Below are positions 5,598 to 13,915 of a DNA stretch of 33,485 nucleotides, piece after piece. Both the position numbers and the translations under genes were made by a program. Positions within the stretch are counted from its first letter, which is position 1. Each line of letters starts with the position of its first letter. The notes below the pieces were generated by a model that saw only the letters and a program-made list of their open reading frames with translations, was not told the origin of the DNA and made no database searches. Origin of the DNA: Chloroflexaceae bacterium (GTDB taxonomy: Bacteria > Chloroflexota > Chloroflexia > Chloroflexales > Chloroflexaceae); contig JAAURD010000028.1 in assembly GCA_012034075.1 (NCBI GenBank), positions 1 through 33,485 on the forward strand. The letters run 5' to 3'.

Positions 5598-5718
5598 CAA
5601 GGACGCTGGCACAACCGCTGCCTATGATGGCCTGCAACTGCTTGCGATTGCGTTACCCAATGTTGACCATACCTGGTACAATAAAAGAATATATTTTTCC
5701 ATGCTACCAGGAATGGAC

Positions 5719-7242
5719 ATGAGTGATCAGCAAGCAGCAATTATTGACCTTGGTTCAAATACCACCCGGATGATTGTCATGGCCTATCAGTTACGGCATC
5801 ACTTCCGACTCACTGGCGAAATCAGCGAGACGGTGCGCCTAGCCGAAGGCGTGCGTGATGACGGCGTGTTGCAGGCCACCCCGATGCACCGTGCGCTGGA
5901 AGCCCTGAAAATGTTTCACACACTCTGCCAGTCCTCGCAGATTGACCATGTGATTGCCGTGGCAACCAGTGCATTGCGTGAGGCCAGTAACCAGGCCTCA
6001 TTTTTATATGCGCTGAAACGCGAAATTGGCCTTGACATGCGGGTCTTAAGCGGTGAAGAAGAAGCCTACTATGGCTATCTTGGCGTGATTAACTCCCTCC
6101 CTATGACCGATGGCTTTGTCATTGATATCGGTGGTGGCAGCACCGAAGTGACCCAGGTGGCCGATCGCTCATTTGTTCAGGGTATCTCACAACAAATGGG
6201 CGCGGTGCGACTGAAAGAGCGATTTGTGCAATCCGATCCGATTAGCGCCAAAGAGCTTGATACCCTGGAACGTGCTGTGGAAGAGGCGTTTGCCGAACTG
6301 GACTGGCTTCATACCGGACCACGCCAGACGCTTGTAGGTCTTGGTGGTACAATTCGTGCCCTGGCTCGCATTGATCACAAACGCCGCAACTATCCGATTG
6401 AGCGTATTCATGGCTATGTCTTGACCCGACGCTCGCTAGAGAATATCGTGCATACCCTTGCGGTGAGCACCCAGCGTGAACGTGAGGCTATTCCGGGCCT
6501 CAACCGCGACCGTGCCGATGTCATTCTGGCTGGAGCGGTAGTCCTCCGCCAGTTGATGCGTCAGGGCAAATTTGCCGAGATTATGATTAGCGGTCAGGGT
6601 TTGCGCGAAGGTGTCTTTTATGAGCACTTCCTGCGCCATGAACCACGACCGCTCTTTGCCGATGTGCGTGCTTTTAGCGTGCGTAATCTCGCCTATCAAT
6701 GCCAATTTGATGAGGCCCACGCCAACCGTGTCTGCGAACTGAGCCTATCGTTGTTTGATCAGCTAGCAGCACTGCATGGGTTTGGCGATTGGGAGCGCGA
6801 ACTCTTGAGTCATGCCGCTATTTTGCACGATATTGGCAAGCATATTAACTTTTACGACCACCATAAGCACTCCGAGTTTCTGGTAGTCAACTCGCCACTG
6901 CAGGGGTTTACCCATCGCGAAATTGCGTTGATTGCGCTGTTAACACGGCTGCATCGCAAAGGCGATATCAGTAAACGCGAATATCAAGGCGTCTTGCAGC
7001 GTTCCGACGTCGAACGCGTGCAAAAACTTGGCTCGTTACTGCGCATTGCCGAATATCTTGAGCGGAGCAAGGGCCAGCTGGTGCACTCTCTACAGGTACA
7101 GATCCAGCCCGATTTTGTGCGGATTCAGATAGAAGCAACCGGCGATGTATCGGTCGAAATCTGGGATGCCAACCGCCGTTCAGAACTCTTTCGCAAAGCC
7201 TTTGATCGTGATATCACGATTGTCTGGCTACCTGAATCATAA
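5719..7242 (+). CDS. Ppx/GppA family phosphatase with C-terminal HD domain
   Basis: Exopolyphosphatase or pppGpp phosphohydrolase of the ASKHA fold, releasing phosphate from polyphosphate or from the stringent-response alarmone. The 507-residue product starts with the phosphate-1 loop AAIIDLGSNTTRMIV, has the second phosphate motif VIDIGGGSTEV near residue 140, and ends in an HD-type domain with HDIGKHI near residue 370, as in long Ppx proteins. The ATG at 5719 has AGGA six bases upstream; in-frame ATGs at 5701 and 5713 are possible but less well placed. Sequence alone does not decide between Ppx and GppA. Its stop codon is followed at once by the glmS leader promoter. Confidence 0.93.
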   Translation: MSDQQAAIIDLGSNTTRMIVMAYQLRHHFRLTGEISETVRLAEGVRDDGVLQATPMHRALEALKMFHTLCQSSQIDHVIAVATSALREASNQASFLYALKREIGLDMRVLSGEEEAYYGYLGVINSLPMTDGFVIDIGGGSTEVTQVADRSFVQGISQQMGAVRLKERFVQSDPISAKELDTLERAVEEAFAELDWLHTGPRQTLVGLGGTIRALARIDHKRRNYPIERIHGYVLTRRSLENIVHTLAVSTQREREAIPGLNRDRADVILAGAVVLRQLMRQGKFAEIMISGQGLREGVFYEHFLRHEPRPLFADVRAFSVRNLAYQCQFDEAHANRVCELSLSLFDQLAALHGFGDWERELLSHAAILHDIGKHINFYDHHKHSEFLVVNSPLQGFTHREIALIALLTRLHRKGDISKREYQGVLQRSDVERVQKLGSLLRIAEYLERSKGQLVHSLQVQIQPDFVRIQIEATGDVSVEIWDANRRSELFRKAFDRDITIVWLPES

Positions 7243-7243
7243 G

Positions 7244-7272
7244 TTGCACCACCAGAGAATCTATGGTATAGT
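7244..7272 (+). promoter_or_regulatory. Promoter of the glmS leader
   Basis: TTGCAC (7244-7249) and TATAGT (7267-7272) with 17 bases between them, directly after the ppx stop codon. Transcription would start near 7279, about 70 bases before the ribozyme cleavage site and about 570 bases before the glmS start codon. Confidence 0.65.
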
Positions 7273-7344
7273 GCCATTTACGGTTCTAAATAGCGGTCAT
7301 ACAGGGGAAAGGTGACCAGGAGGAATGCCCACACAACACGTACT

Positions 7345-7562
7345 GTTTTAAGCGCATGGGCCTGATGTATGCCACAACAGAGGCACACATCAGGTTGACG
7401 AGGTGGAGGTTCCCCATTTCGCAATGGGGCTAACAGACGAGCCAGCATGGTCTCGTTCTGGAACATCGAGAGATCAGCGGATGCCTCCCAGGTGCTATCA
7501 CCACCTGTCAGTGTGCTGGGAAACGCCTTCCGGTAACGGACCAGGACAAACCAGACACGGTG
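7345..7562 (+). ncRNA. glmS self-cleaving ribozyme/riboswitch
   Basis: Metabolite-dependent ribozyme: glucosamine-6-phosphate acts as cofactor for self-cleavage of the glmS leader, which lowers glmS expression. The expected cleavage site A|GCGC is at 7351/7352. Recognisable parts in order: a hairpin CCTGATGT/ACATCAGG at 7361-7394; the conserved TTGACGAGG (7395-7403); GGAGG (7405-7409) pairing with CCTCC (7484-7488); the core CATCGAGAGATCAGCGGATG (7464-7483), closely matching the ATCGAGA...TCGGCGGATG of Firmicutes ribozymes as I recall them; a helix CTGG (7516-7519) with CCAG (7551-7554); and inside it TCCG-GTAA-CGGA (7529-7540), the GNRA-capped P4.1 stem, followed by GGACAAACC. The gene downstream is glmS. 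An extra two-hairpin insertion (7412-7461) sits inside the P3 region. Confidence 0.9.
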
Positions 7563-7850
7563 AATAACCCTTCTCTTTTCTTTGGCTTTCCCCATAGAGC
7601 GTCTTTTGCTGCCGGTATCGCACAGGGGGTGTCTTGTATGTACGCCCCACGATACAGGCTAGCTTTGCTATCGCCAGTGTGCAAAACGCAGGGCACGTTC
7701 TGCCGGTTGCACGTGTGCTGGTCGTAGCTTCGTGTTGTCATGGGTAACATCTTAATTGACATAACGCTCGTTGGTGCAGCAGATGAGGACATATCGCGCT
7801 GCGGTGGCCTCGACCAGCTGTGACGATGGGCAAAGAAAGGGAAGAACATT
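7563..7850 (+). promoter_or_regulatory. glmS leader between ribozyme and start codon
   Basis: About 290 bases without a credible gene. It ends in GGGAAG, the ribosome binding site for the ATG at 7851. A TTGACA word at 7756 has no -10 box at a proper distance. I see no further structured motif that I can name. Confidence 0.4.
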
Positions 7851-9707
7851 ATGTGTGGCATTGTAGGCTATGTTGGCCCGCGTCCAGCGGTTGAGGTGGT
7901 TGTCAGTGGGTTAAAGCGTCTCGAGTATCGCGGGTATGACTCGGCGGGGGTCGCCGTCTATCAGCCCGAACCGCAGCCGCACCTTGCGCTCTTGCGCAGT
8001 GTGGGCAAGCTGCACCAGCTGACTGAGCGTTTACAGCATGCAACGATGGGCGGCAGCTGCGGTATTGGGCATACCCGCTGGGCGACCCATGGCGGCGTCA
8101 CGGAGGCCAACGCCCATCCCCACAGCGACCAGCAGGGTCGCATTGTGCTGGTCCAGAATGGCATTGTCGAAAATTACCTGGAACTGAAAGAACGTCTGAT
8201 CGAACAGGGCCATGTCTTTCGTTCGCAGACTGACACCGAAGTGATTGCTCACCTGGTTGGTCGCGCCTATGCCGAATGCGGCTCGCTAGAGCTAGCAGTG
8301 CGGCAGACGCTAGACCTGCTGCATGGCGGTAACGCTATTGTTGCCATGTGTGTGGACGAGCCGGACATGTTGGTTGCGGCGCGGCTGGGCAACGCTGGCG
8401 GCGTGGTTATCGGTCTGGGTGATGGCGAAACGATCATTGCTTCGGATATTCCCGCCGTACTCGATTATACCCACCAGGTGCTCTTTCTGGAAGACCGTGA
8501 GCTTGCGGTCATCACCCGTGCTGGCGTTCGTATCAGCACGCTCGCCGGTGAGCGTATCCAGCGAGCAGCGACGCGGTTGGAGTGGGACCCGGTATCGGCA
8601 GCACGCGGGGACTACGAGCACTATATGCTGAAAGAGATTTTTGAGCAACCCCGCGCTTTGATGGATGTGCTACGCGGCCGAATTGATGTGGAAGCGGGCC
8701 GGGTGACTCTGGATGGGCTGCATCTGGACGATACCGCGCTACGTCAGATCAACCGTGTCTGTGTGGTGGCCTGCGGCACGGCGATGCATGCCGGCCTGGT
8801 GGGCAAATTTATGATTGAGATGCTCGCCGGGGTGCGGGTGGATGTCGATTATGGGAGCGAGTTTCGTTATCGCCAGCCGGTGCTGGATGAACACACGCTG
8901 GTGTTAGCCATTACCCAGAGCGGCGAGACGGTGGATACCCTGGCCGCGCTAGAAGAGGCACGCCATCAGGGTATCCCCAGTGCGGCTATCGTGAATGTGG
9001 TGGGCAGCCAGGCTACGCGCATCGCTAGCGGTGGCGCCATCTACCTGCACGCCGGGCCAGAGATTGGCGTCGCCTCGACCAAGTGCTTTACCAGCATGCT
9101 GGTCGCCTGTTACCTCTTTGCGCTACGACTGGCGCAGGCGCACCGGCGGCTCAGCGCGGATCAGATACGTTCCCATCTCCAGGCGCTGGTCGAGCTTCCA
9201 TCACGCGCCACCCAGGTGATTGAGCAGGCCCAGCCGATGTGTGTGCAACTGGCCGAGCAGTACCATCATGTCCACAGCGCACTCTATCTTGGCCGCCAGA
9301 TGAACTACCCGATTGCGCTTGAGGGGGCGCTCAAACTCAAGGAGATTAGCTATATTCACGCTGAGGGCTACCCGGCTGGTGAGATGAAGCATGGGCCGAT
9401 TGCGCTGATTGATGAGCATCTGCCGGTGATCTGCATTGCCCCGCGTGATACTATTTATGAGAAGATGTTGAGCAATATTGAGCAGGTGAAAGCACGTGGC
9501 GGCCAGGTGATTGCGATTGCCACTGAGGGCGATGAGCTATTGGCGCAGGAAGCGCGGCATGTCCTCTCCATTCCAGAGACGAGCACGCTACTCACACCGG
9601 TGTTAACGATTATGCCGCTGCAACTGTTGGCCTACTCTATCGCGCTGCGCCGTGGCTGCGATGTCGATCAGCCGCGCAACCTGGCGAAGAGCGTGACGGT
9701 GGAGTAG
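7851..9707 (+). CDS. glmS: Glutamine-fructose-6-phosphate aminotransferase (isomerizing)
   Basis: Makes glucosamine-6-phosphate from fructose-6-phosphate and glutamine, the entry step to UDP-GlcNAc and peptidoglycan. The 618-residue length is normal. The N-terminal glutaminase domain (about 1-240) begins MCGIVGYVG with the nucleophile Cys2 and contains HTRWATHG and QNGIVENY. Two SIS sugar-isomerase domains follow, with CGTAMHAG, TQSGETVDT, GVASTKCFTS and LEGALKLKEISYIHAEG. The C-terminus reads NLAKSVTVE, the conserved end of the family. The ATG has a GGGAAG site. Expression is probably fed back through the ribozyme in the leader. No glmM or glmU is nearby. Confidence 0.98.
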   Translation: MCGIVGYVGPRPAVEVVVSGLKRLEYRGYDSAGVAVYQPEPQPHLALLRSVGKLHQLTERLQHATMGGSCGIGHTRWATHGGVTEANAHPHSDQQGRIVLVQNGIVENYLELKERLIEQGHVFRSQTDTEVIAHLVGRAYAECGSLELAVRQTLDLLHGGNAIVAMCVDEPDMLVAARLGNAGGVVIGLGDGETIIASDIPAVLDYTHQVLFLEDRELAVITRAGVRISTLAGERIQRAATRLEWDPVSAARGDYEHYMLKEIFEQPRALMDVLRGRIDVEAGRVTLDGLHLDDTALRQINRVCVVACGTAMHAGLVGKFMIEMLAGVRVDVDYGSEFRYRQPVLDEHTLVLAITQSGETVDTLAALEEARHQGIPSAAIVNVVGSQATRIASGGAIYLHAGPEIGVASTKCFTSMLVACYLFALRLAQAHRRLSADQIRSHLQALVELPSRATQVIEQAQPMCVQLAEQYHHVHSALYLGRQMNYPIALEGALKLKEISYIHAEGYPAGEMKHGPIALIDEHLPVICIAPRDTIYEKMLSNIEQVKARGGQVIAIATEGDELLAQEARHVLSIPETSTLLTPVLTIMPLQLLAYSIALRRGCDVDQPRNLAKSVTVE

Positions 9708-12853: not shown

Positions 12854-13915
12854 TTAGTTCTTGAGAAGTTGTTGTATCCAGTCAGCGACTTTTCGCGTCT
12901 GAGCATGCCCCTGTGCTGTTGTACGGACTATGAGATTCTGCGCTTTCTCTTGATCGGCCCATAGCACATAAATAAGACCATCATCCGAGATACGCTTGAT
13001 ACGTGTCAATGTCGTATTTTCATAATTACCACCAATAATCTGTTGGACTGGTTGAAGATTTGCAACCTGATGGCAAAAGTCGAGTATACCCTTTGGGGGA
13101 TGATGCTGTTGTTTCAGGAGTGAAGACGCGATTTTGTCATCGATCTTGTCTATATTTGCAGATGGTGGATCCTCGATAGCCTGCGCTTCCTGCTGTTCAC
13201 GGCGAAACCGACGATAGATTACTTCTCCTATAGGGGAAAGGAAAATGTGTCCATCTTCATCAGGGAGTGTCAGTAACGCTCTGATATAATCTTTATCAGG
13301 AAGACCTGCTAAACGTGATTCAATATCACACTTATGACGAATATCACTGTCAATCCAATGAAAAAATGACGGGTAACTCAGAATCAGGCTTGTATCCCAA
13401 CCGAGTGGTACTGGATTAAATGTCACCAGACTTTGAAATTTCTCATAAAGATATTTGACAGGAACTTGATACAACATTCCTAGCATAGTACTATAAACAA
13501 CTTCTGCTTTGAAACCTGCCGTAGCATTGATAATGATCTCACGTTCTTGCTTTTGGGCACGTTCAATTTCAGTGATCAGGCTATTGACCAGATTACGTAA
13601 CCCTCGTGACTCTAGGTGCCGTTCATCATCAGCGATTTGTAGTTCAACAAGTCGTACATCATTATATTCTTTCCCTTTCAAGAACTGTTGAATTAACATA
13701 GCACAACAACGTGCTTCATCTGTATCAGTGTGTAGCAGCACAATTTCATCTCTCGGTTCAGTAAACTTGAGTAGAGAGTTTGTTTCTGCTGAAGCGCGTT
13801 CGGGTTCTGTACGTAAGTACTGGCGCATCTGATCTTCAGTCGGTGTTTCCGTACTATATGTTCTTTTTGTGTTGGACAAGAGCGAAATACCCGTTGTTGT
13901 CAGGATAGTTTTCAT
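12854..13915 (-). CDS. CARF-domain CRISPR-associated protein (Cas_APE2256 type) with possible RelE-like C-terminus
   Basis: Cytosolic sensor of cyclic oligoadenylates in type III CRISPR immunity, by family. The N-terminal Rossmann-type CARF domain (about 1-200) shows MKTILTTTGISLL as the first strand and ligand loop, and INATAGFKAE (N130 onward), the N-x-T-x-GFK motif of the APE2256/Csx1/Crn1 group. Residues 200-245 form a helical linker with LSPIGEVIYRRF. The last 80-90 residues (from about 265) end in alternating strands, RIKRISDDGLIYVLWAD and NLIVRTTAQ, then a helix; by eye this resembles a RelE/ParE toxin fold, as in CARF-RelE mRNA interferases (Cami1). That assignment is inference. No HEPN R-x4-6-H motif stands out. 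No CRISPR array or other cas gene is in the window. A hairpin lies in its leader. Confidence 0.85.
   Translation of the reverse strand: MKTILTTTGISLLSNTKRTYSTETPTEDQMRQYLRTEPERASAETNSLLKFTEPRDEIVLLHTDTDEARCCAMLIQQFLKGKEYNDVRLVELQIADDERHLESRGLRNLVNSLITEIERAQKQEREIIINATAGFKAEVVYSTMLGMLYQVPVKYLYEKFQSLVTFNPVPLGWDTSLILSYPSFFHWIDSDIRHKCDIESRLAGLPDKDYIRALLTLPDEDGHIFLSPIGEVIYRRFRREQQEAQAIEDPPSANIDKIDDKIASSLLKQQHHPPKGILDFCHQVANLQPVQQIIGGNYENTTLTRIKRISDDGLIYVLWADQEKAQNLIVRTTAQGHAQTRKVADWIQQLLKN

Follow-up and report, generated by a model that had tools for sequence, protein, structure and literature searches.

Does the leader of a Chloroflexales glmS gene hold a genuine glmS ribozyme and, if so, are the two additional hairpins within it a local oddity or a conserved part of the switch? 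The glmS RNA is a natural ribozyme with a metabolite for its cofactor, and most work has addressed the Firmicutes form. Cleavage depends on glucosamine-6-phosphate (GlcN6P), and the cleaved mRNA is then degraded (PMC6154101). We analyzed a stretch of 33,485 nucleotides from a Chloroflexaceae draft genome (hereafter the window), for which an earlier note, made from the letters alone, had proposed such a ribozyme with a two-hairpin insertion. Our results indicate that positions 7340–7569 very probably constitute a glmS ribozyme carrying a conserved inserted domain.

Identity and genomic setting of the ribozyme

The Rfam search that the earlier note had suggested matched RF00234 to positions 7340–7569 of the forward strand with 50.5 bits (E = 5e-9), covering 167 of 167 model positions and exceeding the curated cut-off of 37 bits. 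This was the sole glmS ribozyme match in the 5.0-Mb draft genome, and the only other above-cut-off Rfam matches within the window were three tRNAs. The ribozyme lies in the 5' leader of glmS on the same strand, as the note had it, and the genome, guessed to be of Chloroflexota, belongs to Chloroflexales. The principal features of the locus are:

7340–7569 (+): complete glmS ribozyme (matched by RF00234, single copy in this genome)
7851–9707 (+): glmS, glucosamine-6-phosphate synthase, 618 aa (Pfam GATase_6 and two SIS domains)

Upstream of the ribozyme is an exopolyphosphatase (Ppx-GppA) gene (5701–7242). Approximately 280 nt separate the ribozyme from the glmS start codon, a distance that counts against a working ribozyme; spacers are likewise long in the relatives, at about 190–875 nt from the core. 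This intervening leader (7570–7850) folds strongly (z −3), and a repeat scan and Rfam search of it returned neither repeats nor an Rfam family. Promoter and terminator scans of 7200–7870 found nothing. Elsewhere in the window, a gene with a Cas_APE2256 (CRISPR-associated) domain occupies 12854–13915 of the reverse strand, the tandem-repeat scan of the window detected no CRISPR-like array, and a perfect 27-bp tandem repeat of 2.7 copies lies at the contig end (33408–33481).

Core architecture

All helices of the family (P1, P2, P2.1, P2.2, P3, P3.1, P4 and P4.1) could be placed with standard pairs at exact coordinates. The assignment of P2.1 and P2.2 and the roles of core residues follow the core numbering of PMC7125110.

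7351–7352 (+): predicted cleavage site A-1/G1 (RF00234 alignment; cleavage by analogy with the family)
7353–7358 (+): P2.2 5' strand, C2–G7 (CGCAUG), with A7356 bulged (C5/G53 to A5/A53 covariation)
7359–7396 (+): P1 hairpin, 7359–7368/7387–7396 and 7370–7373/7382–7385 (fold, pair check)
7397–7403 (+): GACGAGG core strand, invariant in 42 relatives (core letters looking so by construction, see below)
7405–7409 (+): P2 5' strand GGAGG, partner 7484–7488 (covariation)
7465–7483 (+): AUCGA-GAGA-UCAGCGGAUG, comprising the P2.1 3' strand, loop, P2.2 3' strand and cofactor pocket segment (roles per PMC7125110)
7484–7488 (+): P2 3' strand CCUCC (covariation, pair check)
7489–7507 (+): P3 hairpin (pair check)
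7511–7558 (+): P4/P4.1 support domain with GUAA loop 7533–7536 (RF00234 alignment, pair check)

The hallmarks of the family are present: A-1/G1 followed by CGC (7351–7355), GACGAGG (7397–7403), AUCGA (7465–7469) and GCGGAUG (7477–7483). The motifs quoted in the earlier note, namely A7351/G7352, GACGAGG, GGAGG/CCTCC, the core at 7464–7483 and the GTAA loop, were all found in place, whereas the helix flanking the insertion, which it named P3, is P2. In the double pseudoknot around P2, 7399–7401 pair with 7466–7468 (P2.1) and 7353–7355 plus 7357–7358 pair with 7475–7479 (P2.2), every pair being standard. Bases 7498–7501 of the P3 loop can pair with 7560–7563 to form P3.1, so the P3/P3.1 pseudoknot accompanies a P4/P4.1 domain with a GNRA loop. 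The window thus shares with the RF00234 forms of Bacillus subtilis, Bacillus anthracis and Thermoanaerobacter tengcongensis the A/G cleavage site, P1, P2, the P2.1/P2.2 double pseudoknot, P3 with P3.1, P4/P4.1 with its GNRA loop, and the place upstream of glmS. It differs from them in having 53–54 extra bases, folded as two helices, in the joint J2/2.1 instead of the short 3–4-nt joint that is usual for the family, though not defining, and in carrying A5/A53 for C5-G53 in P2.2 and G-U pairs at the base of P1.

In two further loci (L077 and L311), P2.1, a usually invariant helix, was changed on both sides, with GACGCGG facing GCGA (A30-U43 to C30-G43), a compensatory change that arose in nature.

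By analogy with characterized members of the family, accumulating GlcN6P would bind a pocket formed by P2.1 and P2.2 and act as the acid catalyst for cleavage at A7351/G7352. Degradation of the cleaved downstream glmS mRNA would then lower GlmS synthesis, closing a feedback loop.

Covariation within P2.2

The letters AUGGG that follow GCGC do differ from the usual ones, as had been noticed; they are explained by covariation with a partner, A7476, and by G-U pairing at the P1 base. Position 5 pairs with position 53 in the standard form (C5-G53), and the window has A5/A53. Among ribozymes with the insertion, 99 copies combined CAN with A53 and 20 combined CCN with G53; among those lacking it, CCN accompanied G53 in 30 of 33. 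The rule of C5 with G53 and A5 with A53 was nearly exceptionless across about 100 relatives. In most A5/A53 copies, U6 could pair with A53 while A5 is bulged, a shifted-bulge P2.2 of the kind predicted by laboratory mutants (PMC7125110), making the Chloroflexota form a natural test of that movable bulge. Copies with A6 or C6 are unfit for the U6-A53 pair, so A5/A53 may also form a non-standard pair.

These altered positions after GCGC, together with the low RF00234 score (50.5 bits, against roughly 75–125 bits for many insertion-less forms), might be read as signs of a decayed ribozyme that has lost cleavage. We consider this very improbable, because all invariant core letters are retained, the altered position covaries with its partner as described, and the low score is in large part a consequence of the insertion itself. 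Indeed, a covariance model that includes the insertion (R1) scored the window, which was among the sequences used to build it, at 82.2 bits and insertion-less ribozymes at 27–40 bits.

The inserted two-helix domain

The insertion occupies J2/2.1, between the P2 5' strand and the P2.1 3' strand. The earlier note had placed two hairpins at 7412–7461; both exist, and better bounds are 7411/7412–7464. Its elements are:

7412–7429 (+): inserted helix A, 7412–7418/7423–7429, loop UCGC (double compensatory changes at all 7 pairs)
7430–7433 (+): conserved YUAA linker, here CUAA (alignment of relatives)
7434–7460 (+): inserted helix B, 7434–7437/7457–7460, 7438–7441/7452–7455 and 7442–7444/7448–7450 (fold; 4 of 4 basal pairs with double compensatory change)
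7461–7464 (+): conserved GAA(A/C) closing the insertion, here GAAC (alignment of relatives)

Across relatives, the insertion follows the consensus GGUU, a helix A of some 7 bp that mostly ends in a GNRA loop, YUAA, a variable helix B, and GAA(A/C) leading into AUCGA. The window reads GGUU, helix A (CCCCATT-TCGC-AATGGGG), CUAA, helix B (C7434 to G7460, with inner strands within 7438–7444/7448–7455) and GAAC; its helix A loop is UCGC, in place of the GNRA loop of most relatives. The folding energy of the insert alone was unremarkable (z −0.9), and we therefore dropped energy as evidence and relied on comparison.

The same order of helix A (with a GNRA-type loop in most), YUAA, a helix B of any length and GAA(A/C) recurred across 97 distinct Chloroflexota ribozymes, in 67 of which helix A measured 7 bp, the remainder having mostly 5–6 bp with a bulge. 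When a fixed, unfitted frame of 7 + 4 + 7 was imposed on 70 distinct sequences, helix A was fully paired in 50, with a mean of 6.26 bp compared to 4.64 ± 0.09 after swapping of 3' strands. Helix B, anchored on its flanks, gave 3.88 of 4 pairs (1.86 ± 0.14 swapped). In a MAFFT alignment of 42 rows, window included (A1), RNAalifold recovered both helices unaided, with double changes in 14 of 21 pairs. Within A1, 99.0% of cells were paired as opposed to 76.5 ± 1.0 when shuffled, the covariation score was 0.677 (shuffled, 0.218 ± 0.014), and all 11 insertion pairs showed double compensatory changes. Since the loci were chosen in part by core-containing patterns, core letters appear invariant by construction; helices A and B are unaffected.

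Two further candidates were set aside. One was a helix of its own, UUC/GAA, closing the insertion; its letters are nearly invariant, so it is indistinguishable from a conserved unpaired motif. The other, a likeness of YUAA/GAA to the UAA/GAN internal-loop motif, does not extend to the outer flanking pair, which is not kept, and we make no claim for it.

An expansion of the joint that is neutral or merely tolerated, and without a role, would agree with the existence of insertion-less forms and with the size of helix B, which ranges from a few base pairs to more than 100 nt (L063 and Herpetosiphonaceae-type loci). We regard it as unlikely: a neutral insert would decay, and here both classes preserve helix A, YUAA and GAA(A/C), each pair having undergone compensatory change.

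Distribution of the insertion

RF00234 matches were obtained in 103 of 158 genomes of the class and 91 of 301 genomes of the phylum, and many insertion-bearing relatives still score above its cut-off. R1 located the insertion form in about 40 of 82 Chloroflexales genomes, five of them missed by RF00234. The insertion was seen in both Chloroflexales and Anaerolineae, the latter supplying most of the matches listed in a pattern search of named genomes. The hairpins, which the earlier note had implied to be peculiar to the window sequence, therefore form a domain conserved among glmS ribozymes in both groups; a large Chloroflexota branch shares the insertion, which thus counts as a conserved element of the switch, not as a peculiarity of one locus. 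Variation occurs within it, as in three Chloroflexales loci (L022, L028 and L030) with a long helix B and AGCGA for AUCGA.

None of 38 Bacillota ribozymes that parsed cleanly or nearly so had the insertion (one locus, L297, was unparsed and left out); the joint measured 3–4 nt, and P2 strand plus joint 9–11 nt, in all 38. It was also absent from the loci read in other Chloroflexia orders (L031–L059 and L073–L079). These resemble the window in their core and, where GlmS was read, in preceding glmS, but differ in lacking the insertion (GGAGGC-UG-AUCGA) and in keeping C5-G53. In the GlmS tree, where the insertion-less group comprises ten sequences, GlmS of these orders forms a separate long-branched lineage, and the insertion thus tracks the GlmS lineage more than the class. 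Two insertion-form matches in metagenome-assembled genomes named Spirochaetaceae and Paludibacter accompany GlmS proteins about 70–78% identical to those of Anaerolineae, which points to misbinning or transfer.

McCown, Roth and Breaker reportedly described, in 2011, glmS variants from Deinococcus-Thermus whose catalytic core has additional stems, and part of the present findings may already have been published there. We also observed a Chloroflexota locus (L305, genome G233) with extra core-loop sequence between P2.1 and P2.2 rather than in J2/2.1.

Possible role of the insertion

What might a two-helix domain do in place of a 3–4-nt joint? An architectural role appears to be the most likely one, and we hold it with about even confidence. 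Helix A, usually with its GNRA loop, barely changes in length whereas helix B varies freely, a contrast that points to docking: the fixed-length hairpin probably docks on the ribozyme and would steady the fragile P2.1/P2.2 double pseudoknot, otherwise the task of the P3–P4 domain. The position of the insertion beside the pocket strand likewise favors structural support. For the window copy, whose helix A loop is UCGC, the docking idea is weaker. With a conserved domain set next to the cofactor pocket, this form lets one ask, in a natural RNA, what keeps the double pseudoknot together.

Because the insertion runs at its 3' end straight into the P2.1 strand, which contributes to the cofactor pocket, a signal could be relayed between them, and the insertion might instead be a second sensor, either an extra aptamer or a protein site, that tunes the ribozyme. 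This seems improbable, as its conserved unpaired bases (GGUU, YUAA and GAA) are too few for a typical metabolite pocket and the Rfam families in the window are tRNA and glmS only.

Consistent with the architectural reading, the P4 part was missing or misaligned in the Rfam alignments, from which P4 presence was read, of four insertion-bearing Anaerolineaceae loci (L092, L152, L123 and L118). These loci, and perhaps L106, L137 and L141, seemingly lack P4/P4.1, and their glmS start lies 85–125 nt after the core. Separately, Anaerolineae loci within L080–L159 (for example L084, L117, L118 and L123) show an extra helix between the leader just 5' of the cleavage site and the segment after P3, as in GGGAAAG/CTTTCCC and GTTTAGG/CCTAAAC. 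The longest such helix measured 6.74 with its own strands and 5.16 with swapped ones in Anaerolineae, whereas Chloroflexales, at 4.09 and 4.14, lack it.

Copies linked to glnA

In Anaerolineae, an altered glmS-type ribozyme lies upstream of the glutamine synthetase gene glnA in 12 of 12 loci with enough sequence (L082, L086, L114, L120, L125, L200, L202 and L227–L231). Two genomes (G306 and G334) each have two RF00234 matches, one before glmS and one before type I glutamine synthetase (TIGR00653, above its cut-off), and a third (G712) also carries a glmS-linked copy besides its glnA-linked one. The glnA copies have the same insertion and start A/GCG(G/A)CUG, compared to A/GCGCAUGG (the slash marks the cleavage site). 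Three of them exceed the RF00234 cut-off, and 7 of 396 genomes of that class carry the exact glnA-copy pattern. Their P2.2 can be rebuilt with G4 bulged, through C5-G54, U6-A53 and G7-C52.

All but two of 463 glmS ribozymes are said to precede glmS (McCown and colleagues, 2011), and our literature search found no paper joining the glmS ribozyme to glnA. We tentatively suggest, at somewhat less than even confidence, that the insertion form is a distinct subclass whose core is supported by the new domain, for some members instead of P4; a duplicate in Anaerolineae would have come to control glnA, its P2.2 rebuilt (A/GCGGCUGA, bulge shifted to position 4) and its response perhaps altered. If so, the availability of glutamine, from which GlmS takes its amino group, would come under the control of GlcN6P or a related amine, and with the glnA-linked relatives the class would act at two steps of one nitrogen path instead of on a single gene. 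In two of these loci, a 6S RNA (RF00013) lies directly upstream of the glnA-linked ribozyme (L230, 98–273; L231, 37–212).
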